A DNA stretch of 64,000 bases, from the NCBI GenBank assembly GCA_030710605.1, contig CP092874.1, positions 41,542,963 to 41,606,962 on the forward strand, given 5' to 3'. A model generated the notes under the pieces. The model made no database searches, was not told the origin of the DNA, and saw only the letters and a list, made by a program, of their open reading frames with translations. The position numbers were made by a program, and so were the translations under genes. The stretch is from Cordylochernes scorpioides (lineage: Eukaryota > Arthropoda > Arachnida > Pseudoscorpiones > Chernetidae). This document shows positions 3,926-62,780 of this stretch, piece after piece. Positions within the stretch are counted from its first letter, which is position 1; the number at the start of each line of letters is the position of its first letter.

Positions 3926-4201
3926 GCATAGGGCGCCTCTCCCGTCAAATTAAACGTCAGAACCTGACGCCATCGAGGCCGAAACTAACAGCCTTGGGTC
4001 GGTGACAAAGCCACAACACCAGCTTTGGCAAACTGAGAAGCGTCCACCTAGATACCATGGTTTGGGGCTAATGGCCCTCGTCAGTCTAGGGCGGACTTTA
4101 TTCCATGAGATCCACGCGGGATCTAATGGAATCTTCACAATCTATCAAAGAGGTGTTTTGCTGGCAAGGTGGCTGGGCCAAATCTATGGCTAGAATATAG
4201 A
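3926..4201 (-). repeat. hammerhead family 1 repeat unit (solo, degenerate)
   Basis: One copy of the unit that forms the array at 46858-48320. It shares the blocks CGGTGACAAAGCCACAACACC, CTAATGGCCCTCGTCAG and GGTGTTTTGCTGGCAA. On this strand orientation the ribozyme reads from the minus strand. It is immediately followed by a foldback made of the unit's end sequences (4202-4417). Confidence 0.85.
4042..4096 (-). ncRNA. hammerhead ribozyme, family 1, inactivated
   Basis: On the minus strand the order is stem I, CUGACGA, a GGGC/GCCC stem II with loop CAUUA, then CAAA in place of the invariant GAAA, and the palindromic stem III ACCAUGGU. Changing G12 of the core to C should abolish cleavage. The length (55 nt) and all helices match the intact copies at 47-48 kb. 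Confidence 0.8.
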
Positions 4202-14496: not shown

Positions 14497-17400
14497 TTAT
14501 ATTTCAAAAAACTTCGAAGGCCTTCTTAATCTTGAGGACCTTCTCAAAATAGGACTCGACGCTTCACCAGTAGGATCTATTTCCTGACCAGCTTGGGGGT
14601 CTTCAATATTATTTGACTCTTGTGGAGTTGCCGATGTAGACGGAGTTGCTTCTCTTTCTCCACAATCTCGGACTTGATCCAAATGCCTATTTAAAATTTC
14701 ACCTTCATCTGTCTCCACCTTAATAGAAACAGGACCAGTTTTTTCCCGCACTACACCTGGTAGCCATCTGGGGCCATGGTACCATCGTGCTATAACTGCC
14801 TGTCCTTCATTTACCACTTTATGGGGTTTCCAATTTCTTATGAACCTGTCCTCCTGTCGCATCCTTCCCTCCGACACACCTTCAGGATGAAATTTATTTA
14901 TGAGACTCTTCAGGTTTCTGTTCATCAACAACTGTGCTGGGGATTTCTGCGTCGTGCTGTTTATAGCTATTCTCATGGATAACAACGATCTAGATAACCT
15001 AGTCGTCCAATTTCCCGAGCTGTTCTTTCTTAGCAGATTTTTAAGCGTCTGAATAGCTCTTTCCACCTGCCCATTTGACGCTGCATGATAAGGCGCACAC
15101 AAGATGTGCCTCACGCCATTTCTTTTTAAGAAAGTCCTGAAAAGTTCCGATGTGAAGGACGTACCATTATCTGAAACTATCACATCCGGCAACCCGTGGG
15201 TCGCGAATATTTCCTTTAAGCAATTGATGGTAGTTTCAGTAGATGTTGTAGATACGATTTTAGCCTCAATCCACTTAGAATAGGCATCTACTACAACCAG
15301 AAAGATTTTTCCTTGAAAGGGACCCGCATGATCAATATGCAGTCTCGACCAAGGTCTTGATGGCCAAATCCAAGGATATACGTCAGTTTTTGGCGGATCG
15401 TGACTACACGGCAAACAAACCGCACAACTGGATATCATCCGTTCAATATCTCCATCCATCTTGGGCCACCAGCATAATCCTCGAGCAAGCGCTTTTGTCC
15501 CGACTATGCCAATGTGAGTATCATGTAAAAGATTTAAAATATCTTTTCTTAATCTTTCAGGTATAATCACCCTGCTCCCCCACAATAAACAGTCCTTATT
15601 AACTGATATTTCACTAGATTTGGAGACAAAATCCCTATATTTATCATCAACTTTCCTTTCAGGCCACCCATTCATTGCCCAGAATTTAACCTTAGAAAGG
15701 ATTGGATCTTTACTGGTTAGTTTTGCCACTTCCGAAGAATTAATTGCAGCATGTTCCGATTCTATAAATAACACCTCTGAAGGGTTCGGAACTACACTTG
15801 GACATTCATTTAAAGGCAGTCTACTTAATGCATCGGCATTACAATTTACTTTTCCCGGTTTATACTCTATAGTATAAGTATACGCAGCCAAAGTCAAACA
15901 CCATCTCAACATGCGCGGTGATAGCACTTGAGGTATCGGCTTTTTGGGGTTGAATATTCCAACTAAGGGTTTATGATCCGTCAAAATTTTAAATTTTCTC
16001 TCTAGAAGATACTGTGAAAACTTTGATATACCAAAAATGACTGCTAATGCCTCTTTATCAATTACTGCATATCTTCTCTCAGTTTTATTTAAAGTTCGGG
16101 AGGCAAACACAACTGGTCTTTCAACACCATGGTCTATTTGCGACAAAATGGCTCCAACACCATACTCCGACGCATCACAGTTGACCAAGATAGGCAGATC
16201 TTCATTAAAATGTGCTAAAACAGACTTAGAGCTTATCAAGTTTTTAACCTCTGCAAAAGATCTTTGATGTTCTTTATTCCATTTCCATGGACTATTACTG
16301 TCCAACAGTCTATGGAGAGGTTCAGCTACTGTGGCTTTATTATTCAAAAACCTCTCATAATAATTAAGAAGTCCAAGAAAAGACATCAATTCCCTTTTAT
16401 TAGATGGTGGTCTGGCATCTTTAATTGCTCTCAACTTTTCTTCGGATGGATGAATTCCTTTATGATCAATAATCATTCCTAGAAATTCAATTTCTGGAAC
16501 ATAAAAATGGCATTTTTCTTTTTTTAGACGAAGTCCAGATTCTCTGAAGCGTAGCAGTACCTTTTCAGTTTTTATTTTAAGATCATCACAATCTCTTCCT
16601 GAAATTAGGACATCATCTAAGTACACTGCAACTCCATCAATTCCACTCAGAAGAGTATCCATGAATCTCTGGAATGTTCCCACGGCTGAATTTAAGCCAA
16701 AAGGAAGACGCTTCACCTTATATAAACCTCTAGGTGTATTAATAGCGAGAATCTCTGCAGATGTTTCATCCACTTTCAACTGCTGATATGCTTGAGCCAT
16801 GTCCAACTTAGTAAACACTCTGCCACCTCTCAATCTATCCAAAAGTTGCGGAATTGTGGGCAGTGGGTATTTATCAGGATTACTATACAAATTTACTATA
16901 CTTTTATAATCGTGGCATATTCTTATAGTGCCGTCATTCTTTAGGACCGTCACAATTGGTGATGCCCATTTGGTAAATTTAACCGGTTCAATAACCCCTT
17001 GCTCTTCCAGTGATTTTAATTTTTTATCTACTAGTTCTCTCAGAGCAAATGGCACGGTTCTGGCCTTTACAAATTTGGGTTCTGCATTCTCAGGAATGTC
17101 AATATGGATCAAAGGTTCATTATAGGCATCAATTTCCTGTTTAAATACTTCTTCAAATTCAGAAGAAAAAGGATTTGTTTCGATATGATTCAAAAAATTT
17201 ATCCTCAGGCGAAACGCTTCAAACCACTGCCTTCCCAGAATGTTAGGACCCAGACCATCAGCCACTAAAATTGATAATTTTTTAAAACCATTTGTTACTT
17301 TTGCTTTAACAAAAAGCTTTCCCAAAATCTTGACGTTACTTGACGACCATGTCTTCAATAGCACTTCAGATTTCTCAAGTTGGGTTACTCTCCAATACTT

Positions 17401-18315
17401 TAAAAATGTTTCTTTGTTTAGTAATGAGTATGCACTTCCTGAATCTATAAGCATTGCTACGTCATGATTATCTAATTTAACCATTATGTAAAAAGGATTA
17501 CTTAAACTTTCAGTTCCAATACAGTGTAGGTATGTATCACTATTACTTCTATTCAAGTATTCAAATTTCTTTACTCTAGTCAGGCATGCCTTCTGCAGAT
17601 GACCAATTTTGCCACATTTAAAACATTTTGCATTTCTGAATTTACAAACATTTGGCATATGATTTCCTTTACAACGTATGCAAATTATTTTATTATTCAT
17701 TTTCTTGAATTCCTTAAAATGAACTTTGCCCGATTTAAATTTAGGCGGTTCAGCCCTGCTAGCTTTCCTTAATATATTTACATCAGGAGTCGTCTCCATC
17801 AAAACACTAGCATTTGCACTTGCCGACTCATCACATAGTGCTATATCTATGGCTTTTTCAAAGGTCAAGTCTTTTTCAGACAATAGTCTCTTCACAAGTG
17901 ACTCTTTTTTTAAGCCACACACTAATCTGTCTCTTAAACGATCATCCAGATCAACAAACTCACAGTTCTCACTTAATCTTCTTAATTCTGCTATATAAGT
18001 AGCAATCGGTTCATTACCTTGATTATGTTTGTTAAAATGGTATCGCTGGACTATCACATTGGGCTTAGGGCAAAAATGTCCAGTCAGGATAGTAAGTATC
18101 TCTTCATAATTTACATGAGCTAAATCTTTTGGCGCGGCCAATGACCTTGCCAATGCATAATTTTCAGGGCCTATTAAAGTAAGAAAAATATCTTTTTTCT
18201 GCGTGATCTTTTCAATTCCATTTGCAAGGAAAAAGAATATCATTCTCTCCACGTACGTTGTCCACTTTTCTGGCTTAGAAGGATCAAAATTCTCAATATT
18301 CCCGAAACTAGCCAT
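14497..18315 (-). CDS. Ty3/gypsy Gag-Pol polyprotein, single uninterrupted ORF
   Basis: 1272 residues without stop or frameshift. Gag occupies about 1-250 with two zinc knuckles, C212-C215-H219-C224 and C231-C234-H239-C244. The protease has IDSGSAYSLL with Asp291. The reverse transcriptase has LDMAQAYQQL (Asp505) and YLDDV (565-569). RNase H has CDASEYG (Asp714), DKEALAV and TDHKPLV. Integrase has a His/Cys zinc domain (H931/H934, C964, C967), then Asp995 in IDHAGPF, Asp1049 in SDNGTSF and Glu1085 in NGQVERA, giving a DD35E triad. All key residues are present. Gag and pol are fused in one frame, so no frameshift is needed. The start Met begins MASFGNIENF just after the leader. It copies RNA to DNA and integrates it. 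Short ORFs on the opposite strand are shadows. Confidence 0.95.
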   Translation of the reverse strand: MASFGNIENFDPSKPEKWTTYVERMIFFFLANGIEKITQKKDIFLTLIGPENYALARSLAAPKDLAHVNYEEILTILTGHFCPKPNVIVQRYHFNKHNQGNEPIATYIAELRRLSENCEFVDLDDRLRDRLVCGLKKESLVKRLLSEKDLTFEKAIDIALCDESASANASVLMETTPDVNILRKASRAEPPKFKSGKVHFKEFKKMNNKIICIRCKGNHMPNVCKFRNAKCFKCGKIGHLQKACLTRVKKFEYLNRSNSDTYLHCIGTESLSNPFYIMVKLDNHDVAMLIDSGSAYSLLNKETFLKYWRVTQLEKSEVLLKTWSSSNVKILGKLFVKAKVTNGFKKLSILVADGLGPNILGRQWFEAFRLRINFLNHIETNPFSSEFEEVFKQEIDAYNEPLIHIDIPENAEPKFVKARTVPFALRELVDKKLKSLEEQGVIEPVKFTKWASPIVTVLKNDGTIRICHDYKSIVNLYSNPDKYPLPTIPQLLDRLRGGRVFTKLDMAQAYQQLKVDETSAEILAINTPRGLYKVKRLPFGLNSAVGTFQRFMDTLLSGIDGVAVYLDDVLISGRDCDDLKIKTEKVLLRFRESGLRLKKEKCHFYVPEIEFLGMIIDHKGIHPSEEKLRAIKDARPPSNKRELMSFLGLLNYYERFLNNKATVAEPLHRLLDSNSPWKWNKEHQRSFAEVKNLISSKSVLAHFNEDLPILVNCDASEYGVGAILSQIDHGVERPVVFASRTLNKTERRYAVIDKEALAVIFGISKFSQYLLERKFKILTDHKPLVGIFNPKKPIPQVLSPRMLRWCLTLAAYTYTIEYKPGKVNCNADALSRLPLNECPSVVPNPSEVLFIESEHAAINSSEVAKLTSKDPILSKVKFWAMNGWPERKVDDKYRDFVSKSSEISVNKDCLLWGSRVIIPERLRKDILNLLHDTHIGIVGTKALARGLCWWPKMDGDIERMISSCAVCLPCSHDPPKTDVYPWIWPSRPWSRLHIDHAGPFQGKIFLVVVDAYSKWIEAKIVSTTSTETTINCLKEIFATHGLPDVIVSDNGTSFTSELFRTFLKRNGVRHILCAPYHAASNGQVERAIQTLKNLLRKNSSGNWTTRLSRSLLSMRIAINSTTQKSPAQLLMNRNLKSLINKFHPEGVSEGRMRQEDRFIRNWKPHKVVNEGQAVIARWYHGPRWLPGVVREKTGPVSIKVETDEGEILNRHLDQVRDCGEREATPSTSATPQESNNIEDPQAGQEIDPTGEASSPILRRSSRLRRPSKFFEI

Positions 18316-18492
18316 CTTTAAAAAATTAAAGTTTAGTTTTAAAATTAGTTTAAAAATTAGCTCAAGATTACTTTACCTTAAAATAATTCTTTTTTCTCTC
18401 GTCGCCAATTTATTATGTATCTTCTAGTTTAAGAGATTTACGACGCAACGCTAGTCATTTTTGCATACATACATTTTTAATTAAAAACTAAG

Positions 18493-19742: not shown

Positions 19743-20374
19743 GTTATAATACATTGAAAAAGGTGGGCGTTCAACCAACTGAAATATTGGTCAGAAAATT
19801 ATATTTTGATCCAATATATGCCTTTTTCAATTAAATAATAAAATATATTGCTCTATTTTTATTATATTTCTAATCAAGCTGTGATACCGCCTTTGTAAGA
19901 CATACATGACTTGGAATAAACTGAATCAACCTTCATTGAGAAGCCACCTCCAGGAGAGACCAGAGCTATGTACTTATACGATCAGCCATGGAAGGTTTTA
20001 TCGTTTTTTAAACATTTTATTCTGGAAAATATTATTTTTACAATACATATATTGAATCAAAATGTTTATGTTGGAATAGATGCAACCTGCAGCCGAAAAA
20101 ATAGTCCGACAACAACAATAACAACAACAAAAGAGAATTCAGGACCTGGTTTCATTGCACTTATATTACCTTTTTTATCGAATTATTTTTCTAAAGGAAA
20201 GAAATAAATTCAGAGAATCATAATAATATTGTAAAAATGTAAGTTCGGAATCGTACATATAACAAATATAAGGAGATGTGATGAATTGATAAATACGTGT
20301 GGATAAAAATTCCTTATAGAATATAGAAAGCAAAATAGAATTGAGGAATCTAAAATTGGAAATACAAATTGTAA
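19743..20374. other. AT-rich DNA with short open stretch, unassigned
   Basis: It contains a small inverted pair (ATTGAAAAAGG near 19753 against CCTTTTTCAAT near 19829), an ACA/ATA-rich simple tract near 20110 and a 79-codon open stretch (19968-20207) with no recognisable motif. No supported gene. Confidence 0.5.
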
Positions 20375-20603
20375 ATTATAAAACTATTTTAGAGGCGTAA
20401 TATTCTTTTTTTAAAATAAAACAATTTCTACTGTCCTTACTGCGATGGAAAACAGCGGTATGGTAGATTAAACTGGCGAAACCGCTGGGAGGGTTCACCA
20501 CTGATGAGCCAGGCCCTCCCTTTAATTTTTCCATCGCAGTAAGGACAGTAGAAATTGTTTTATTTTAAAAAAGAATATTACGCCTCTAAAATAGTTTTAT
20601 AAT
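20375..20603. repeat. 229-bp foldback element carrying hammerhead family 2 core
   Basis: Arms of about 75 bp (20375-20450 and 20529-20603) are inverted copies of each other, the inner ends being CTTACTGCGATGG and CCATCGCAGTAAG. Between them lies the 68-nt core at 20453-20520. The right arm and the following 30 bp (GATGGCGCTCTAG block) recur with the core at 20825-21007. Confidence 0.9.
20453..20520 (+). ncRNA. hammerhead family 2: candidate permuted (pseudoknotted) hammerhead
   Basis: Two abutting hairpins with no unpaired base between them: AGCGGU/ACCGCU (20454-20459 with 20481-20486) and GGGAGGG/CCCUCCC (20487-20493 with 20514-20520). Hairpin 1's loop carries A (20460), UGGU (20461-20464), CUGGC (20473-20477) and GAA. 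Hairpin 2's loop carries ACCA (20497-20500), CUGAUGA (20501-20507) and GCCAG (20508-20512). UGGU pairs with ACCA (stem I), CUGGC with GCCAG (stem II), and hairpin 1 is stem III with U16.1 and A17 in place. All hammerhead core boxes are therefore present, but the strand order demands loop-loop pairing. Self-cleavage (predicted after 20460) is inference. Confidence 0.5.
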
Positions 20604-20824
20604 TTGATAACAGATGGCGCTCTAGTACATCGTAACATTATTGTTCTAATAAAAGACACAATTTGATATTTGCGGAAGAGCGATTGCTCGAAGCATATTA
20701 TATATTTATAATTATATTTAATTCTGCTGTCCTAAAAGCTTATGTCCATAGTTCTTCTAAAATACCCATTCCAAGAGTCTTACAACAGTCACCTATAAAA
20801 GGAAGTTCCAAAAATGCAATATAA

Positions 20825-20892
20825 CAGCGGTATGGTAGATTAAACTGGCGAAACCGCTGGGAGGGTTCACCACTGATGAGCCAGGCCCTCCC
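20825..20892 (+). ncRNA. hammerhead family 2 core, exact duplicate
   Basis: Identical to 20453-20520, so every helix and core box described there is retained. Tandem spacing of 372 bp means a read-through transcript would carry two cores. Confidence 0.45.
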
Positions 20893-20975
20893 TTTAATTT
20901 TTCCATCGCAGTAAGGACAGTAGAAATTGTTTTATTTTAAAAAAGAATATTACGCCTCTAAAATAGTTTTATAAT
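20825..20975 (+). repeat. second family 2 copy, left arm missing
   Basis: Core plus right arm identical to 20453-20603, starting 372 bp downstream. The inverted left arm is absent, so this copy is not a foldback on its own. The shared block continues to about 21007. Confidence 0.9.
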
Positions 20976-21618
20976 TTGATAACAGATGGCGCTCTAGTAC
21001 ATCGTAACAAATTGTAAAGTTAAAAAAAAAATGCATTTATATTTTTAATGTTTTATATTTAAATCAAAATGTTAATTATATATATATGTCTGTAAAATAC
21101 TTCAATATTTATTGAAAACTTCACTCTGTCTATTATAAATTGTATGTTGGTTTTATTATATTCCAGTGCAGAAAGACGTGTATAAAAATGTATATTACAT
21201 TTATAATTTATGAAATGGAGTTAACTGTACAAAGATATATACAACTTTCTTCTTCTGTATAAAATGATGATAATTAAGTCGTCTGCTACAAGTTCTTCGG
21301 AGAGCGTTTTCAGCCTCACAACACTGTAGCCGAGCAACATACTGCAATGAACGGATTCTATATATGATTGATAATGCTATATTAAAATTTATACAAACTC
21401 TTTGTGTATGTATCTAGTTAATTCATTCATACGCACACAAAAAAAAAAATTGAAATACTTTATAAAATTTCAATTTTATTGAGAATAGAAAGAATATATA
21501 TTACAATACAAAAATGAACAAAATAATATAAATATATATATTAATTAAAAGGCAAGCGAAAAAGTTTATGTAGGGGTAATAAAACACATATTAAATAATA
21601 CAAATCAATAATGCGAAA

Positions 21619-25663: not shown

Positions 25664-26704
25664 TTAGGATGTTAAAGAATCATTCTTGTCTTCTTCCATT
25701 CTTTCAAGGATTCCTCTTAGGATCAAACTGAAATCTTTGCGTTCAATACCTTGAGCCAATAGATGCAAAAGAATCCAGTCTCCAAACTTGAGGGTTCTTC
25801 GTAGTTGTGACAGTTGTACAGGATCTTCCAAATCAGCATAAACTTTAAGCCAGCAATGGTCTCTCGAAAATCCACAGGTATAGAAAGCTGATCGTGTTAA
25901 GACAATAATTACAGTATCGATTAATAAAAGCAGATGCCAATACCAGAGAACAATGAAAATTCTTGCATGAAGTGCATTTAAAGGTAGAGAACAGATATAA
26001 TGATGGTGTATAGGCTCACCTGTACGACCAATTGTTGCAAACTGACAACTTGAAATTGAAGGAAACATCTTCAAAACTAAATCATCTGCTTTACCTTTAA
26101 GAAAGAGAAATCCCAATTTGGTATAGCCTGGATCCAAGTATATACAGGTACTCACAAAATTTGCGATAAAACTTATAACAACCAGTATTTCACAGAATAA
26201 ATATCTTCGTACCCATCTTCCACGATGGTTAACATCTTCAGTGAAATAATCTGCAATCTTCTGACAGCATTCTTTTCTCCGATCATCATTCAAATAGTCT
26301 TCGCAATTTTGAAGATCATACAGTAATCGCTTCAGCGTCTTTTCTTGCCATATTTTCCAAAGCATCAATGGAATAAAATACGAAATTCCTTGTAAAAGCA
26401 GAAAAATATATGCTAAATCATAATAAGAAGATATAAAATAATTTCGAACATTTTCTTCTTTGGCAGATTTTGTAGAAAGTTTATTAAAGTTAGATTCACC
26501 AGTAAGACAGAAAGATTCAGCCAAAGAATACGAAATTGATTCATCACCGACACAAACAATCGCGTTTTGACCAATCAAACGATGACAAATAATAACAGCA
26601 GATGATAAAATGAAAACGAACCCCGAAAATGAAGAAAGGCCAAAAGACCGACCTGGAATTTTGTAGTCGTCCAATCCAAGAAAACTTCGCAGACGACCCA
26701 ACAT
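25664..26704 (-). CDS. innexin (gap-junction channel protein)
   Basis: 346 residues, close to the usual 350-400. Four hydrophobic segments lie at about 23-45, 95-118, 168-190 and 247-270, with cytoplasmic ends as in innexins. Two extracellular loops each hold a Cys pair (C51 and C66; C220 and C238). Family landmarks are YY at 94-95 before TM2 (canonical YYQWV), SYFIPLMLWKIW, the CSLPLNALHARIFIVLWYW block before TM4, and GDWILLHLLAQ at 308-318 (canonical GDWFLLYQLG). I chose the Met at 26704 because MLGRLRSFLGLDD aligns with innexin N-termini. The frame is open upstream to a Met at 26893, adding 63 residues that do not look innexin-like. No intron interrupts the ORF. Innexins form gap junctions and membrane channels in invertebrates. 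The TM2 motif is YYDLA, so this is a divergent paralogue. The only convincing host gene in the window. Confidence 0.93.
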   Translation of the reverse strand: MLGRLRSFLGLDDYKIPGRSFGLSSFSGFVFILSSAVIICHRLIGQNAIVCVGDESISYSLAESFCLTGESNFNKLSTKSAKEENVRNYFISSYYDLAYIFLLLQGISYFIPLMLWKIWQEKTLKRLLYDLQNCEDYLNDDRRKECCQKIADYFTEDVNHRGRWVRRYLFCEILVVISFIANFVSTCIYLDPGYTKLGFLFLKGKADDLVLKMFPSISSCQFATIGRTGEPIHHHYICSLPLNALHARIFIVLWYWHLLLLIDTVIIVLTRSAFYTCGFSRDHCWLKVYADLEDPVQLSQLRRTLKFGDWILLHLLAQGIERKDFSLILRGILERMEEDKNDSLTS

Positions 26705-27715
26705 CACAGCAGCAGTTTTGAAAATTTCTGACCAAAAAGGAAGTAATGCAGAAGATAAGAGTAATTGTGGGGTGAAGTTCATTGTTCTTCTGCGTCCTTG
26801 CAGCACCAATGATAAAGCACGCAAACGATAACATTCTTCTCTTTCCTTCCTGTCTTTGAATAATAGACCAAACGATAATTTTGAATAGCACACGATGCTT
26901 ATAATATAAATAAGTAACTATATTTAAATTTATTTTTCTGAAAATAAAATAAAGATAGGAATAAATATAAGCTAATGTTTATTTTTAATATATTAATATA
27001 TTAATGAAAATTTATTTTAATATATAAATCTATATTAATAAAAAATGGAAATTTCATAAGTGGACATCACTAAAAACTTTCGTTACAATGCATCAATTTC
27101 AACCAAATTTTCAACATTTATGTAAAACGAGATGGAGCAGGTTTTGTTTAACATCAAAATATATTTCCTAACATTAACATGCGTAACTTCGCTGTTATCG
27201 ATTAAATACAAAAAAAAATCAACAGAGTTAATTTTATTTATATATAAATACAAAATTAAATTTCAACAGAGTTAATTTTTTTACATACTAGCTAATAATC
27301 TCAATCTAAAAAATATTCAAAACAAGCAATTTTAAGATAACACCATATGTAAAACAGTCGCCCAAGAAAAAAACAACGATATTACATCTTTCTCACATAT
27401 TCACACACAATCTTGATTAATAATTAAAACTAATCTTTAACATTGTTTATTATACTTCAACTTTTATTTCTACATTTGTTTTTAAATACCCAATTGTTTT
27501 ATCATGTTTCTAATTTCGCCTAACAAATATACAAATTTATAGTGACCAACATATGCAAATTTTATCTTTGTTTTTATTTAACTTGATATCGTAAACATAA
27601 CATCCATTGTAAGCATTTTTCTGTTCACCTTCCGTGGTTTCTCTTTTCTCTGATAGTTTTTAGGTGTAGTATATTTTCTTATTACTAGACTACAAACATT
27701 CCCCCGAGAAAAACC
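26705..27715. other. AT-rich DNA upstream of the innexin
   Basis: Would hold the innexin 5' untranslated region and promoter. I see no clear TATA box. A short direct repeat (TCAACAGAGTTAATTTT) occurs twice near 27218 and 27260. Confidence 0.5.
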
Positions 27716-28050
27716 CCATCTATATTTTAGCCATAGATATGGCCCAGCCACTTTGCCAGCTAAACACCTTTTTGGCAGATTGTCAAGATTCCATTAGATC
27801 CCGTGTGGATCTCATGGAATGAAGTCCGCCCTAGACTGACGAGGGCCATTAGCCCGCAACCATGGTCTCTAGGTGGACGCTCTTCAGTTTACCAAATCTG
27901 GTGTTGTGGCTTTGTCACCGACCCGAGGCCGCTAGTTGCGGCGACGGTCAATAGATGGCGTCTGGTTTTAGACGTCTATTTAGGACGGGAGAGGCGACCC
28001 TGTCTCTTTAGATCAATTTCCTCCCGGAAATATTTCCATCTATATATATA
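27716..28050 (+). repeat. hammerhead family 1 repeat unit (solo)
   Basis: A single unit bracketed by CCATCTATAT at both ends (27717 and about 28034), with the same block order as the 47-48 kb array. The bracket suggests slightly more than one unit length was inserted. Confidence 0.85.
27824..27878 (+). ncRNA. hammerhead ribozyme, family 1, core mutated
   Basis: GUCC-CG-CCUAGA stem I, CUGACGA, GGGC/GCCC stem II, then GCAA in place of GAAA, stem III ACCAUGGU and the site GGUC before UCUAGG. Helices are perfect but the A13 to C change in the core should prevent cleavage. Confidence 0.8.
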
Positions 28051-35347: not shown

Positions 35348-36397
35348 ATATGGCACGTTATAGTTTCATAACCTTTATAAGTATAATTATTAAAAAGCAG
35401 CTATGAAAATAGATAATGTTTAACTTACGTAACAGCTATATGCGGAAACTGTGTTATATAAATGAAGTATAAGTTGAACAAAAAGATAAAAGGTATAGTG
35501 TACAGCAGTATTTCAATAATTTTTAATTCAAATTTATAAAAATCACCCAAATGTTAACAACATATTACATTTTTACAAAACAATGGACCTTTTTATCCTC
35601 CAAATAAACAGATTATTTCAGCCAACACTAACAAATACAATAAATATTAATAAATATTAAAGATATATTTGTACAAAAATATATATGTATTTAAATATTT
35701 AATAAAAGTATACTCTTACAAAACACAATGTTGAATTAATAATTAAAATATCATTTTATTCAGTGAAGCACTATAAAAATCATTTTCCAGATAAGTGATC
35801 ATTCCAACTTCCCTCAGGCGAACATTTTGTTTTTGAAAGAAAAAATAGGCAGACGTTGAACAAACGGTTGAAAGTGTTCTTCTGCATTGAAATTGCATAT
35901 TTATTTGAATAGCGCTTTTAATAGAATATATATAGCCCTAATATAGCGTTAATATAAGGTTTTAGCGTGTGAAATCTTCCTGTATAAGATTTGAAGCAGT
36001 TTTTTTTACCGTTTTTCTCAATTTATATATGTTAGAAGTGTGTAAAATTTATTGAAACATACGATGTCCATCACACAGACCTTCACCTGTCCAAGACTGT
36101 GGCTCAACTTTGTACTATATGATGTCATCTCTTCCCAGTTGTTGCTGACTGGTCTACATGCTTTCTTCCCTTCTGATTTTCTCTTATTCTGTCATTAACT
36201 GAACTCTATCAAATCAATCATCACTTTGCTTCAATGGGTCACTCATCAATATTTCCAAAAAAATAATATTTATCAGTACCTATGTGTATTAATCCCTTGA
36301 AATACCTTCACTAATAGTTCAATAAAATTTGTAACAATTATATTTACTGACAATGTGTGTGTTTTTTTGAAATAATATCATCAAAATAATCTTTACA
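35348..36397. other. AT-rich DNA, no gene seen
   Basis: No open frame of interest and no repeat shared with the rest of the window. Confidence 0.65.
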
Positions 36398-36540
36398 GAC
36401 TTTACTGCAATGATAAAAGTTATTGAATATTAGGGCTTGGTTCATCAATGCTCTACCCTCTCAGCGGTTTCGACAAATTAATCTCCACTGATGAGCGAAA
36501 CCCTCTCATTCAATAACTTTCTTCATTGCAGTAAGGTCTA
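36398..36540. repeat. family 2 foldback, rearranged copy
   Basis: Outer arms (TTTACTGCAATGA...TTATTGAAT and inverse) enclose a centre where a minus-strand core (GUCGAAACCGCUGAGAGGGU ... UUGAUGA) meets a plus-strand piece CACTGATGAGCGAAACCCTC. The stems I and II seen at 20453 cannot both form. Confidence 0.6.
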
Positions 36541-36701
36541 TAGAGCTAATATGTTATGATATTATTAAAAAGAAGCACATTGCCAGTAAATTGAATTGTT
36601 AAATATTTTATCGATAGATGGCAAAATTGAATTTAAGTTCTAACTAAATTCAAATTTAGAGTTCAATAAAATGTCAAGCAAAAGAGGATAGCAGGGCCTT
36701 C

Positions 36702-36758
36702 TGGTCGATTCAACTGACGAAATTTTTGGGAATCATTGATGAGCTTGCCCTTCCCAAA
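36702..36758 (+). repeat. family 2 core, degenerate
   Basis: GGUCGAUU, CUGACGAAA, UUGAUGAGC and a closing TTTGGGAA/TTCCCAAA hairpin keep the family order. The closing hairpin differs in sequence from the GGGAGGG/CCCUCCC of 20487-20520 but still pairs. CUGAUGA has become UUGAUGA, and stem III is lost. Confidence 0.55.
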
Positions 36759-37039
36759 TATTTGTTTAATTGTCGCCAATAGACAGAAGGAAATTGTTTC
36801 AATAAAAATGAATAACAAAAAATATTCAAAAATTGTATATACAACATTTATAAAGAGTGTTTTATCCTAGGATTTTCCGCTGGTTCTAAGCTTACATTTA
36901 ACCTCTCTTTTAACGGTTAAAACACACACATATATATATATATACATTTTTAATTTTGATTGCAAATGCAAAGTTCAATTATAGAGGTTAATGTCCGAAA
37001 TGAAATGGGTATCCGACCTCACTGTTAATCACTCTCTAT

Positions 37040-39919: not shown

Positions 39920-40167
39920 TTTCACACATAAATCAAACTTCTACTGGCCTTACTGCGATGAAAGGATATTGGGAGGGCTTGACTCATTTTATCTACCAGA
40001 CTGCTTTTTTAGAGGCTTGATACTGTTTTAGATCTCTAAGGAAGCGATCTGGTAGATCAAAAAAAATATGGCGTAACCGCTGGGAGGGTTCACCACTGAT
40101 GAGCCAAGCCCTCCCAATTTTTTTTCATCGCAGTAAAGACAGCAGAAGTTTGATTGATGTGTGAAAG
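39920..40167. repeat. family 2 foldback element, copy 3
   Basis: About 45-bp inverted arms (39920-39963 and 40123-40167) with the inner ends TTACTGCGATGAAA and inverse. The centre holds a partly duplicated, partly inverted core: the left half contains an inverted A-strand (TATCTACCAGACTGC), the right half a forward core (40042-40115). Confidence 0.8.
40042..40115 (+). ncRNA. family 2 hammerhead-like core, defective
   Basis: Retains UGGU/ACCA (stem I), UGGC/GCCA (stem II), CUGAUGA and the GGGAGGG/CCCUCCC hairpin. The GAAA box is GUAA, and stem III has an internal mismatch (AGCGAU against ACCGCU). The linker between UGGU and UGGC is longer than in the 20453 copy. Confidence 0.5.
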
Positions 40168-46674: not shown

Positions 46675-47010
46675 CGAACAAAAATTAAAACATTTGGCAA
46701 AGCGTTAAAAATTCTTCTGAGGCTGCAAGGGCGTTCTCACGCGATATTTCAAATTTTGTACATCTAAAGCACGAGTCAAAAACAAATATTTAACTCACAA
46801 ATGACTATAATATTTTATATATATTATAATATATATATATATATATAGATATATAAAATTTGCCGGGAGGAAATTAATCCATAGAAGCAATGGGCGCTTC
46901 TCCCGTCAAAATAAACGTCAGAATCTGACGCCATCTATTGACCGTCGCCGCAACTAGCGGCCTCGGGTCGGTGACAAAGCCACAACACCAACTTTGGCAA
47001 ACTAATTAGC

Positions 47011-47065
47011 GTCCACTTAGAGACCATGGTTTCGGGCTAATGGCCCTCGTCAGTCTAGGGCGGAC
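47011..47065 (-). ncRNA. hammerhead ribozyme, family 1, core intact
   Basis: Minus strand: CUGACGA, GGGC/GCCC stem II with loop CAUUA, GAAA, stem III ACC-AU-GGU, cleavage after C (47022). Stem I has one C-A mismatch in its inner helix, and its outer GUCC/GGAC helix is intact. Confidence 0.85.
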
Positions 47066-47317
47066 TTTATTCCATGAGATCCACTCGGGATCTAATGGAA
47101 TCATCACAATCTACCAAAGAGGTGTTTTGCTGGCAATGTGGCTGGGCCAAATCTATGGCTAGAACATGGATAGAAAATTTGCCGGGAATAAATTAATCCA
47201 TAGAAGCAATCGGCGCTTCTCCCGTCAAAATCTGACGCCATCTATTGACCGTCGCCGCAACTAGCGGCCTCGGGTCGGTGACAAAGCCACAACACCAACT
47301 TTGGCAAACTGATAAGC

Positions 47318-47372
47318 GTCCACGTAGAGACCATGGTTTCGGGCTAATGGCCCTCGTCAGTCTAGGGCGGAC
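47318..47372 (-). ncRNA. hammerhead ribozyme, family 1, core intact
   Basis: Same architecture as the copy at 47011-47065. Stem I has a C-C mismatch at the same pair (CUAGA against UCUAC). The cleavage position is 307 bases from that copy's. Confidence 0.85.
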
Positions 47373-47634
47373 TTTATTCCATGAGATCCACACGGGATCT
47401 AATGAAATCCTCACAATCTACCAAAGAGGTGTTTTGCTGGCAATGTGGCTGGGCCAAATCTATGGCTAGAACATGGATAGAAAATTTGCCGGGAGGAAAT
47501 TAATCCATAGAAGCAATCGGCGCTTCTCCCGTCAAAATATGACGCAATCTATTGACCGTCGCCGCAACTAGCGGCCTCGGGTCGGTGACAAAGCCACAAC
47601 ACCAGCTTTGGCAAACTGATAAGTGTCCACCTAG

Positions 47635-47654
47635 AGACCATGGTTTCGGGCTAA
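47635..47654 (-). ncRNA. hammerhead ribozyme remnant truncated at the array flip
   Basis: The minus strand retains half of stem II (UUAGCCC), GAAA, stem III and the stem I 3' strand. CUGACGA and the stem I 5' strand are lost at the inversion junction 47654/47655. Confidence 0.8.
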
Positions 47655-47825
47655 CGTTTATTTTGATGGGAGAAGCGTCCATTGCTTCTATGGATTAATT
47701 TCCTCCCGGCATATTTTCTATCTATGTTCTAGCCATAGATTTGGCCCAGCCACATTGCCAGCAAAACACCTCTTTGGTAGATTGTAAGGATTCCATTATA
47801 TCCCGTGTGGATCTCATGGAATAAA

Positions 47826-47880
47826 GTCCGCCCTAGACTGACGAGGGCCATTAGCCCGAAACCATGGTCTCTAAGTGGAC
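47826..47880 (+). ncRNA. hammerhead ribozyme, family 1, core intact
   Basis: CUGACGA, stem II GGGC/GCCC, GAAA, ACCAUGGUC, stem I GUCC-CG-CCUAGA against UCUAAG-U-GGAC with one mismatch. Predicted cleavage after 47869. Confidence 0.87.
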
Positions 47881-48145
47881 GCTTATCAGTTTGCCAAAGT
47901 TGGTGTTGTGGCTTTGTCACCGACCCGAGGCCGGTAGTTGCGGCGACGGTCAATGGATGGCGTCAGATTCTGACGTTTTTTTTTAACGAGAGAAGCGCCG
48001 ATTGCTTCTATGGATTAATTTCCTCCCGGCAAATTTTCTATCTATGTTCTAGCCATAGATTTGGCCCAGCCAGATTGCCAGCAAAACACCTCTTTGGTAG
48101 ATTGTGAGGATTCCATTAGATCTCGTGTGGATCTCATGGAATAAA

Positions 48146-48200
48146 GTCCGCCCTAGACTGACGAGGGCCATTAGCCCGAAACCATGGTCTCTAGGTGGAC
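48146..48200 (+). ncRNA. hammerhead ribozyme, family 1, fully paired reference copy
   Basis: All elements are ideal: stem I inner helix CCUAGA/UCUAGG (6 bp), 2x1 internal loop, outer helix GUCC/GGAC (4 bp), CUGACGA, stem II GGGC/GCCC with loop CAUUA, GAAA, stem III ACC/GGU with a 2-nt loop, cleavage after C 48189. Type I topology. The palindromic stem III (ACCAUGGU) would also allow dimeric ribozymes. Confidence 0.92.
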
Positions 48201-48419
48201 GCTTATCAGTTTGGCAAAGTTGGTGTTGTGGCTTTGCACTGACCCGAGGCCGCTAGTTGCGGCGACGGTCAATAGATGGCGTCAGATTCTGACGTTTATT
48301 TTGACGGGAGAAGCGCCCATTGCTTCTACACATATTTATATATATATATTATTTTAAAATGCTTATTTTGGATCATATAGTTTTATTTTCCAATATTTCG
48401 TATGGAAACTGGCCAAACG

Positions 48420-51019: not shown

Positions 51020-51470
51020 TCAGCAATAAGAATAAAATTCTTCTAAAATTTTAGAATATATGATTAAATCGTCAAGATAGTTGATGCACCTCTTGTACAT
51101 TAATGGACAAAGGGTTTGTTGTATGATTCGCTGAAACGGGGTAGGGGCATTTTTCAACCCAAAGGGCATAACTAACCACTCATAAAGCCCTTCGTTGGTG
51201 ATGAATGCTGTCTTCTCTGTGCTGTCTGGAGCCATTTCAACATGCCAATAAACTGAGGTGATGTCCAACGAAGTGAAGTATTTCGCTCTCTGAAGACGAT
51301 CGATGACTTCTTGAATGTTAGGCAGTGGCATCTTGTCGTCAATGATAAGGGCATTGAGGCGGCTGTAATCAACGCAAAGCCTCTTTTGGCCATCCGCGAT
51401 CGGTACGAGTGTGACTGGGAAGGCCCATGGGCTTCGACTGTCTCGAACTAGTCTTTTTTTTCTTTAAATC
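51020..51470 (-). pseudogene. Ty3 reverse transcriptase fragment
   Basis: RDSRSPWAFPVTLVPI, KRLCVDYSRLNALI, DRLQRAKYFTSLDITSVYWHVEM, EWLVMPFGLKNAPTPFQ and the active-site box CINYLDDLIIYS are all recognisable and largely in one frame from about 51460. Both catalytic Asp residues of YLDD are kept. The protein stops at 51020 soon after LDD, so thumb, RNase H and integrase are absent. Confidence 0.85.
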
Positions 51471-56636: not shown

Positions 56637-57800
56637 TATTTGATTTTTATATACTTTTTTTCGTAAGTTATTTTATGAAGATAATTCAGTTGCAAATAAA
56701 AGTCCCCGAAATTATGTACTTTTAAGAATTCGAGAAAAATATCAAAAAAAGAGTATTGAAAAAATCCTTTTATAAGTTTATTTTCTATTCTTATTTAAAC
56801 CACTAGGAAATCCTCTATTTTATATTAATATAATTATACTTAAATATAAAAAAGGAATATCCTGAACGCTCACATAAGAATTTTAGATAGCAGAGCGCCA
56901 TCTAGTGGAAAAAATATTTTATAAACCATTTATGAAGTTTTCTCTCTAATATTTGGCCAACCCATTTTCTTGCTAAATTAAGAAAAGCCAACCACGTACG
57001 CGTTTCGGGGTGTAGATTCGATGAAACTACCCTGGAAGTATATGACCAATTATCGTCACATGATCTACAGGAGTAAACAGACGCGGGATACAGACTTGGT
57101 TCCTGATTTCTTCTGGTTGGTATAAACCATCAAAGAACGCTATTGTACTATATATTTGACATACGATGGATTCCATAATGATCATTATTGAAATATATGG
57201 TTTACCTTATTTTTAGAATATGATATATACCTATTTTGGTACCTTCGCTTCTTACCTGGCAAGAAACTATGAGAACTCAAGTTTCTTAACAATTATCTTG
57301 CCAACATGGCCTGGCTCATAAGTGGTGAGCCCTTCCAGCGGATTTACCAGTTTAATTTACTATACCTATTAAATATGGTCATACCGCATCATTTAAGTCT
57401 TTTCTGTGATCTCCTCAACCATTACACTTTCCAGTACGCTACATTTTTAAAAAGGATTCCAAGCTTCTTCCTTCTTTTTCACTAAGTTTCTTGTTGATCT
57501 TTTTAATAGAATTTTAGTAGGTGAAGAATACTACGTATTAAGAAAAACGCGCATATCCTGATCGTGCAACCAAAGGTTTCTGATGGCTTCCAAGCCATTT
57601 TTCAAATTAAACATTTTACCACAGCACAATTTCACTTTTGTACTATTTTTCCCCAATAATACTATGTTTGTTTTATAAATAACCTTGTGAGCCTTGTTTT
57701 GTGAGCCTGAATATTAGTGAGCCTTTTTGAACGACCTGTATGTGAATAATCTTTGAGAACAGTATAAATACATATACAACATAAAGTTGCGGGAAGATTT
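56637..57800. repeat. AT-rich DNA with diverged ribozyme-family fragments
   Basis: 56880-57011 is an inverted, diverged copy of sequence downstream of the 62.4-kb hammerhead, ending in CCCCGAAACGCGUACGUGG on the minus strand (56991-57011) with CUGAUGA lost. 57307-57366 is a minus-strand family 2 core with CUUAUGA and a CUGGU/GCCAG stem II. Near 57620 a CACTTTTGTACTATTTTT block recalls the family 3 repeat. No gene. Confidence 0.55.
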
Positions 57801-62154: not shown

Positions 62155-62596
62155 ATGGCGCAAGCCATCAGAACTTTCAGTTGCACTATAAGGAGATGCC
62201 CTTTTCTTAATTTACGCACCTTATCCCAGTACAATATCACATTTGTACTATTTTTTCAGATTGTGTAGCGTTTTCACGCAATTCTGGCCTTAACTACCCG
62301 TTACATGATTTTTCAGGATGCCCTAATGACCAAATATTTAGTCGTTTAGGTACAGCTTGCACCACGCTGATGAGGGCCAACAGCCCGAAACGCGTCCGTG
62401 ATTAGCTTTTCTTGATTAATCAAGAATTGGTATTTGGCCAATTCTGGAATAATTAAAAATCAACGAGAATAGTTGATATTTATTCCGATAGATGGCGCAA
62501 GCCATCTGCAACTTTCAGTTGCACGATAAGGAGATGCCTTTTTTTAAATTTATGCACCTTATCCCAGAAAAATATCACATTTGTACTATTTTTTCA
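62155..62596 (+). repeat. hammerhead family 3 repeat: 337-bp period with ~104-bp direct ends
   Basis: 62155-62258 and 62492-62596 are direct repeats (GGCGCAAGCCATC...AATATCACATTTGTACTATTTTT), with the ribozyme in the single-copy part between them. The layout is 1.3 tandem units. Confidence 0.88.
62355..62406 (+). ncRNA. hammerhead ribozyme, family 3, core intact
   Basis: Inner stem I CACG/CGUG, CUGAUGA (62367-62373), stem II GGGC/GCCC with loop CAACA, GAAA, palindromic stem III ACGCGU (2 bp, 2-nt loop), site GUC with predicted cleavage after 62396. An outer GCU/AGC helix beyond a 5x3 internal loop would complete a type I stem I. All conserved core positions are present. Confidence 0.87.
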
Positions 62597-62780
62597 TATA
62601 TAAATATATATATTTAAATATATATATAAATTTATTTATTTATATAGTGTTGCATCAAATTAAATGCGCCCTACATTTATTCAAAATATTATATGATATT
62701 TCATATTTATTTAAAACAGATTATTTATATTATCATAATTCCTTTTTATAGTTTCATTCCTTTTGTAATATTTTATTGTA
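62597..62780. other. AT-rich spacer
   Basis: TA-rich simple sequence; nothing supported. Confidence 0.6.

Follow-up and report, generated by a model that had tools for sequence, protein, structure and literature searches.

The 64,000-nucleotide (nt) stretch of Cordylochernes scorpioides DNA analysed here, called the window and the frame for all coordinates below, carries between positions 20364 and 21018 an insert of a small repeated element. Near the start of its full unit, on the plus strand at 20454-20520, lies a candidate hammerhead ribozyme with permuted strand order. In the insert an inverted arm is followed by a full and a partial unit, and the target-site duplication ACAAATTGTAAA stands at either side:

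20364..20375, no strand assigned: target-site duplication ACAAATTGTAAA, 5' copy
20376..20452, minus strand: inverted arm, the head-to-head part of the insert
20451..20822, plus strand: complete unit of the element, 372 nt long (other arrays: 371 nt)
20823..21009, plus strand: partial second unit with an identical motif, predicted site 20832/20833
21007..21018, no strand assigned: target-site duplication ACAAATTGTAAA, 3' copy

A 187-nt copy, 100% identical, lies 372 nt downstream of the motif. The motif itself is built of three blocks, S, G and C, and a closing helix:

20454..20464, plus strand: block S, the stem III 3' strand, A17 and the stem I 3' strand, with the putative cleavage site
20454-20459, plus strand: stem III 3' strand AGCGGU, pairing with ACCGCU at 20481-20486
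20460, plus strand: A17 at the H17 position, cleavage predicted at 20460/20461
20461-20464, plus strand: stem I 3' strand UGGU, pairing with ACCA at 20497-20500
20465..20472, plus strand: linker of 8 nt between stem I and stem II
20473..20486, plus strand: block G, the stem II 3' strand, GAA and the stem III 5' strand
20473-20477, plus strand: stem II 3' strand CUGGC, pairing with GCCAG at 20508-20512
20478-20480, plus strand: GAA, completed to the GAAA box by A15.1 at 20481
20481-20486, plus strand: stem III 5' strand ACCGCU
20487..20493, plus strand: 5' strand GGGAGGG of the closing helix (the stem I-II clamp), 0 nt from stem III
20497..20512, plus strand: block C, the stem I 5' strand, CUGAUGA and the stem II 5' strand
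20497-20500, plus strand: stem I 5' strand ACCA
20501-20507, plus strand: CUGAUGA
20508-20512, plus strand: stem II 5' strand GCCAG
20514..20520, plus strand: closing helix 3' strand CCCUCCC, 7 base pairs (bp) with GGGAGGG

The closing strand GGGAGGG is separated from the stem I strand ACCA by UUC, and a single G stands between GCCAG and CCCUCCC. All core nucleotides of a hammerhead (CUGANGA, GAAA, the U16.1-A15.1 pair and H17) are present. A preliminary description of this DNA had listed the core boxes, the U-A pair, A17 and three complementary stems, and every piece was found where it had been placed. It had also claimed that the order of strands defies drawing as a nested hammerhead; indeed, the blocks follow each other as S-G-C, stems I, II and III all cross each other, and none of the nested orders (type I, II or III, that is CGS, GSC or SCG) fits. 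The 7-bp helix links stems I and II on their outer sides. The two abutting hairpins come out of nested RNA folding unaided, including the GGGAGGG/CCCUCCC hairpin next to stem III to which the preliminary description had drawn attention.

Blocks S, G and C were defined by Eckert et al. 2023 (PMC10085705). In the natural type-SGC hammerheads described there, also referred to as the HRIMA-1 motif and variants, stems I and II are joined by a helix on their outer sides. Five candidates from which activity was expected cleaved in vitro during transcription, and all four helices were probed by disruption and compensation in one example (PMC10085705). The predicted sequences, 583 in number, came almost wholly from metatranscriptomes, and according to the authors none of these RNAs was found in the genome of a known organism, except for one type-GCS candidate. 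In a few published sequences stem III and the clamp meet with a 0-nt joint, which was called not obviously compatible with the fold (PMC10085705). The window motif shares with type SGC the block order, the core nucleotides, stems I-III, the clamp helix and also the 0-nt joint, and the proposed site 20460/20461 corresponds to the type-SGC site at which cleavage would be expected. The S-G-C connectivity is therefore already described, and the statement in the preliminary description that no hammerhead with this connectivity was known is out of date. Its geometrical argument, that the outer ends of stems I and II could be joined by a hairpin, agrees with the type-SGC clamp; the argument left the 0-nt joint out of account. 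That interpretation is thus partly supported, being right in essentials, with a topology that is not new. What appears to be new is that an animal genome harbours type SGC, both in a retrozyme-like element and in a retroelement with GIY-YIG. This claim of novelty rests on the statement of one paper and on searches of the open-licence literature, in which the terms "type-SGC" and "hammerhead" occur together in Eckert et al. 2023 alone; that study is cited by two other papers.

The genome of C. scorpioides (2.62 Gb, 24 contigs), the one animal genome searched, contains numerous relatives of the insert. A 185-nt query gave at least 42 matches of 97-100% identity, with the best 40 of 394 first-look candidates scored. 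Head-to-tail units are spaced 371 nt apart in several arrays; the longest closed array measured spans 3,025 nt, and arrays are commonly head-to-head with inverted units. Head-to-head inserts were scored from loci L002-L031 and L064-L093; the inner joints of L072 and L078 mirror each other, and these two may represent a single locus that was duplicated. Flanking duplications of at least 10 nt were present in 24 of 27 head-to-head inserts (loci of subfamilies A and C, described below), as compared with 54 of 2,550 mismatched flank pairs taken as a control; for one-strand inserts the corresponding figure was 6/24. One outer end at unit positions 143-162 and the other at 180-198 characterise 25 of 28 head-to-head inserts, with no same-class pair of ends among these 25; the remaining three end at 125/125 (twice) and 153/370. 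In the head-to-head inserts the start site seems to differ from one target strand to the other. Two end classes about 30 nt apart, the tail signature of Penelope-like elements (PLEs), are thereby found in the inserts of the 371-nt element.

Two further subfamilies of the element were collected, B seeded by a copy at 40 kb of the window (3,018 first-look candidates) and C seeded by locus L003 (2,102 first-look candidates); for each, about 40 candidates were scored and 30 fetched. The alignment comprises 51 copies in 48 distinct rows and leaves out a relict at 36.7 kb of the window (two rows), L047:2042 (deletion) and 25 partial hits. The preliminary description had tied its fate to conservation of the boxes and to covariation in stems I and II, and both CUGAUGA and GAAA are retained in most of the 51 aligned copies. 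Within the motif, the fixed differences among A, B and C come down to one tolerated change at the site and two base pairs with compensation. In the majority form of B, C17 replaces A17, which is tolerated, and UUGGC/GCCAA replaces CUGGC/GCCAG, so that the outer stem II pair changes from C-G to U-A. In C, GAGAGGG/CCCUCUC replaces GGGAGGG/CCCUCCC, a compensated G-C to A-U change in the clamp; the two commonest C forms account for 12 of the 50 motif hits in 30 C loci, and the other forms vary. The expected compensation was accordingly found in stem II, and in the closing helix as well. Across the alignment, the bases are able to pair in 93.5% of cells versus 92.3% in shuffles (0/500 shuffles as high), pairing falls to 32-51% when the partner strands are slid, and 18 cells are changed on both sides versus 6.5 in shuffles (again 0/500 as high). 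Stem II has compensated pairs among the aligned copies, while changes in stems I and III are one-sided only. We infer that the conservation signal resides in the differences between subfamilies. In many B copies (L032-L061) the site reads GAUC and the linker is expanded by poly-A; this could be a source form that is abundant yet inactive. Since many genomic copies were presumably dead on arrival, scatter among the copies is to be expected.

A second motif of the same type was found in a tandem retroelement of about 5.2 kb encoding a GIY-YIG endonuclease. The search for GIY-YIG gave at least 146 matches (best 150 of 17,015 candidates scored), including several head-to-head pairs, two of which, L094 and L095, were examined for the motif. 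In L094 it lies in both arms:

L094:3564-3626 and its mirror, both arms: type-SGC motif

Written in segments, with a slash at the predicted site, it reads GGCAGU A/AUGGAG UAA GGGCC GAAA CUGCUG CUCAGGU CUUCAU CUGAAGA GGCCC ACCUGAG, with the core nucleotides in place and the blocks in S-G-C order. Stem I has 6 bp including one G-U, stem II has 5 bp and the closing helix at least 7 bp; stem III may extend to 7 bp, its outer end being formed by G-U pairs, and the linker is 3 nt long. None of these helix sequences is common to the 371-nt element, and stem I is wholly different from the one there, yet complementary. An 86-nt query from L094 was identical at 40/40 scored places (best 40 of 1,141 candidates), five pairs of same-strand neighbours of the motif are 5.18-5.29 kb apart, and the motif precedes a same-strand GIY-YIG match by about 1.0 kb at C1:8989854 and C2:100478283. 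The open frame of L094 encodes GIY-YIG at residues 34-114, and no reverse transcriptase family match was found in the part of the frame examined; the 12 proteins homologous to it include some with RVT_1, GIY-YIG or both. Naiad is the name of the clade for elements that, like L094, have an N-terminal GIY-YIG. In the parts compared, the 371-nt element and L094 have no clear end sequence in common.

Chance poorly explains the motif at 20454-20520. A scan of the window that allowed every block order, and required CUGANGA, GAAA, a UH site and at least 4 bp in each of three stems, returned the SGC motif, as two identical copies, together with four type I hammerheads. With a minimum of 4 bp per stem and the blocks within 150 nt of CUGANGA, the order site-GAAA-CUGANGA occurred 145 times in 7,694 random 64-kb windows. 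Under a stricter criterion (within 70 nt, at least 15 bp in total, closing helix of at least 6 bp) the SGC order was found once in 4,700 random windows of the window model, in which the GCS order appeared twice, and in none of 5,455 of the local model. The actual window contains two such motifs, both being identical copies of one repeat. At the motif locus Rfam gave zero matches at the gathering score and reported no hammerhead; below that score matches were weak only, the best being microRNA models along the long inverted repeat. A class of retroelement ribozymes may thus escape surveys that rely on nested models. Hepatitis delta virus (HDV)-like, twister and tRNA/SINE (short interspersed nuclear element) readings were set aside on inspection by eye only. 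In public collections, one pattern matched a viral contig over 23 nt, with dissimilar flanks and what looks by eye like coding sequence, and the contig was rejected as a relative; two further patterns had no match in public viral contigs, and one had none in public prokaryotic contigs.

We conclude, with a probability of roughly 0.8, that 20454-20520 is a type-SGC (non-circularly permuted) hammerhead in a non-coding retrozyme-like element of about 371 nt that is mobilised by a PLE. In the mechanism that we propose, tandem units would be transcribed, hairpin III would hold blocks S and G, the abutting hairpin would present block C, and pairing between the loops of the two hairpins would create stems I and II together with the hammerhead core. 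Such folding is supported by the complementarity, the compensated changes and the unrelated example in L094. The RNA would then be cut after A20460, and by analogy with retrozymes (PMC7229834) the products may be ligated into circles. A reverse transcriptase, probably that of a PLE, would begin to copy the circle or multimer at two fixed positions within it, one for each end of a staggered target cut, and so yield head-to-head inserts with duplications of about 11-15 bp.

Several observations weigh against this interpretation. According to the published account, a clamp that adjoins stem III with 0 nt in between is sterically difficult to accommodate, and the linker of 8 nt exceeds the 3 nt typical of the published family (PMC10085705) and found also in L094. 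Stem I has no two-sided changes among the aligned copies of the element, although covariation had been envisaged for it too. The numbers of double-change pairs (4; 162/500 shuffles as high) and of further pair types (15; 233/500 as high) do not rise above shuffles. One stem III pair is broken in 16 of 48 distinct rows, mainly in the GAUC-site form of B. The L095 pair, with endonuclease matches 1.3 kb apart, has no hammerhead core; at least one family of this kind, then, carries type SGC, but not every pair does. The supposition that the cleavage site would coincide with insert ends failed, with 0/56 inner arm ends at the predicted bond, so the inserts bear no record of cleavage and their templates would have been circles or uncut multimers. 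The analysis, finally, covered a single animal genome.

Other explanations are less likely. The blocks could pair between tandem units or between two RNAs, the site and CUGANGA of one with GAAA of another, forming a nested hammerhead in trans. Head-to-tail units would put both copies into one transcript, and the 0-nt joint puts a strain on folding in cis. Yet such pairing leaves the closing helix, which is kept with a compensated change and recurs in L094, without a role, and it would require the opening of stem III, a local hairpin in the predicted folds; for these two reasons we regard it as unlikely. Slightly less probable still is conservation of the two hairpins for another purpose, e.g., binding of reverse transcriptase, with a hammerhead likeness that arose by accident or is the relic of a ribozyme now dead. 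In its favour are the folding thermodynamics, which prefer the two hairpins, and the result that no insert ends at the cleavage bond, but this explanation does not account for core boxes and loop-loop complementarity common to two unrelated sequences, nor for the compensated change between subfamilies in the outer stem II pair, which forms between the loops. Chance juxtaposition, or a nested hammerhead rearranged into S-G-C order, is hardly credible. Type I hammerhead repeats do occur within the window, and rearrangement is common here, as is evident from the head-to-head joins; against this, the arrangement is rare in random windows, is kept in three subfamilies and recurs independently in L094.

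Type-SGC hammerheads were previously known from RNA of unknown origin. An animal genome would provide them with a host and also with a probable way of replicating. Its two element families, unrelated in sequence, yielded first-look candidates by the hundreds to thousands, natural variation in which the origin and folding of a permuted ribozyme, including its 0-nt joint, can be studied. The anatomy of the inserts also makes the PLE mechanism testable, with two start sites, one per target strand. A broader proposal, for which we see the case as evenly balanced, is that type SGC is the native hammerhead of an animal PLE lineage with N-terminal GIY-YIG and of its small circular-RNA parasites, that the type-SGC RNAs of environmental samples may be transcribed from such elements or related to them, and that the target strands employ the two start sites with a fixed asymmetry. 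On that proposal, non-circular permutation would be no rarity of unknown RNA replicons but a property carried by recently active animal retroelements.

The window holds further relatives of the element:

40043..40150, plus strand: subfamily B motif copy with site AUC/UGGU, an A-C mismatch in stem III and GUAA for GAAA
39928-39987: inverted partial arm beside the 40-kb B copy
36383..36574, no strand assigned: old head-to-head palindrome of related sequence
57308..57366, minus strand: old decayed copy with CUUAUGA and a damaged closing helix
36690..36765, plus strand: most diverged relative, keeping TGGTnGATTnAACTGrCGAAA (linker and GAAA strand), without a stem III strand beside the site

Two copies of the relative at 36690-36765 were found in the genome search; a stem III proposed for this relict by gapped alignment was rejected, as the strand is not contiguous with the site. 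The decayed copy at 57 kb lies between matching pieces of a damaged repeat (56841-57650, minus strand) that resembles the hammerhead repeat at 62 kb. This last is a minimal type I hammerhead with palindromic stem III ACGCGU (62361-62403, plus strand), flanked by repeats at 62155-62261 and 62492-62599; Rfam HH9 scores it at 24.1 bits, below the gathering score of 52. Minimal PLE hammerheads of type I are reportedly the subject of Lunse et al. 2017, by its title small variants acting as dimers. The motif at 62361-62403 looks like these minimal dimer-cleaving hammerheads, whereas 20454-20520 does not. A tandem family of about 307 bp with type I hammerheads (CTGACGAGGGCCATTAGCCCGAAAC) occurs in both orientations (46851-48330; 4060-4084, minus; 27836-27860, plus); four of its sites pass the strict scan, and it looks like a type I retrozyme. 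Other observations are a Gypsy-like open frame of 1291 codons with reverse transcriptase, RNase H and integrase domains (14497-18372, minus), reverse transcriptase fragments (512-970 and 51020-51463, both minus) and an innexin open frame of 417 codons (25664-26917, minus; Pfam PF00876).

Among known systems, the 371-nt element most invites comparison with the metazoan non-LTR (long terminal repeat) retrozymes (Cervera and de la Pena 2020, PMC7229834). These are small (about 150-450 bp) non-coding hammerhead tandem repeats with target-site duplications longer than 4 bp, residing in PLE-rich host genomes, all of which applies here; they bear type I hammerheads, and the 371-nt element bears type SGC instead. 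In comparison with published type SGC (PMC10085705), the window motif is distinguished by its location in animal nuclear DNA within mobile elements. In PLEs (Frangieh et al. 2024, PMC11167929) reverse transcription begins at two adjacent internal sites with a tail of 30-40 bp between them, and both target strands are cut and extended, with no difference in start site between the strands in vitro. L094 differs from the PLEs of that study in its type-SGC motif and N-terminal GIY-YIG. Tandem units, a GIY-YIG endonuclease, two internal starts and a hammerhead near the start are nevertheless features that those PLEs and the elements described here have in common, and the inserts of the 371-nt element resemble the PLE tail signature (PMC11167929).
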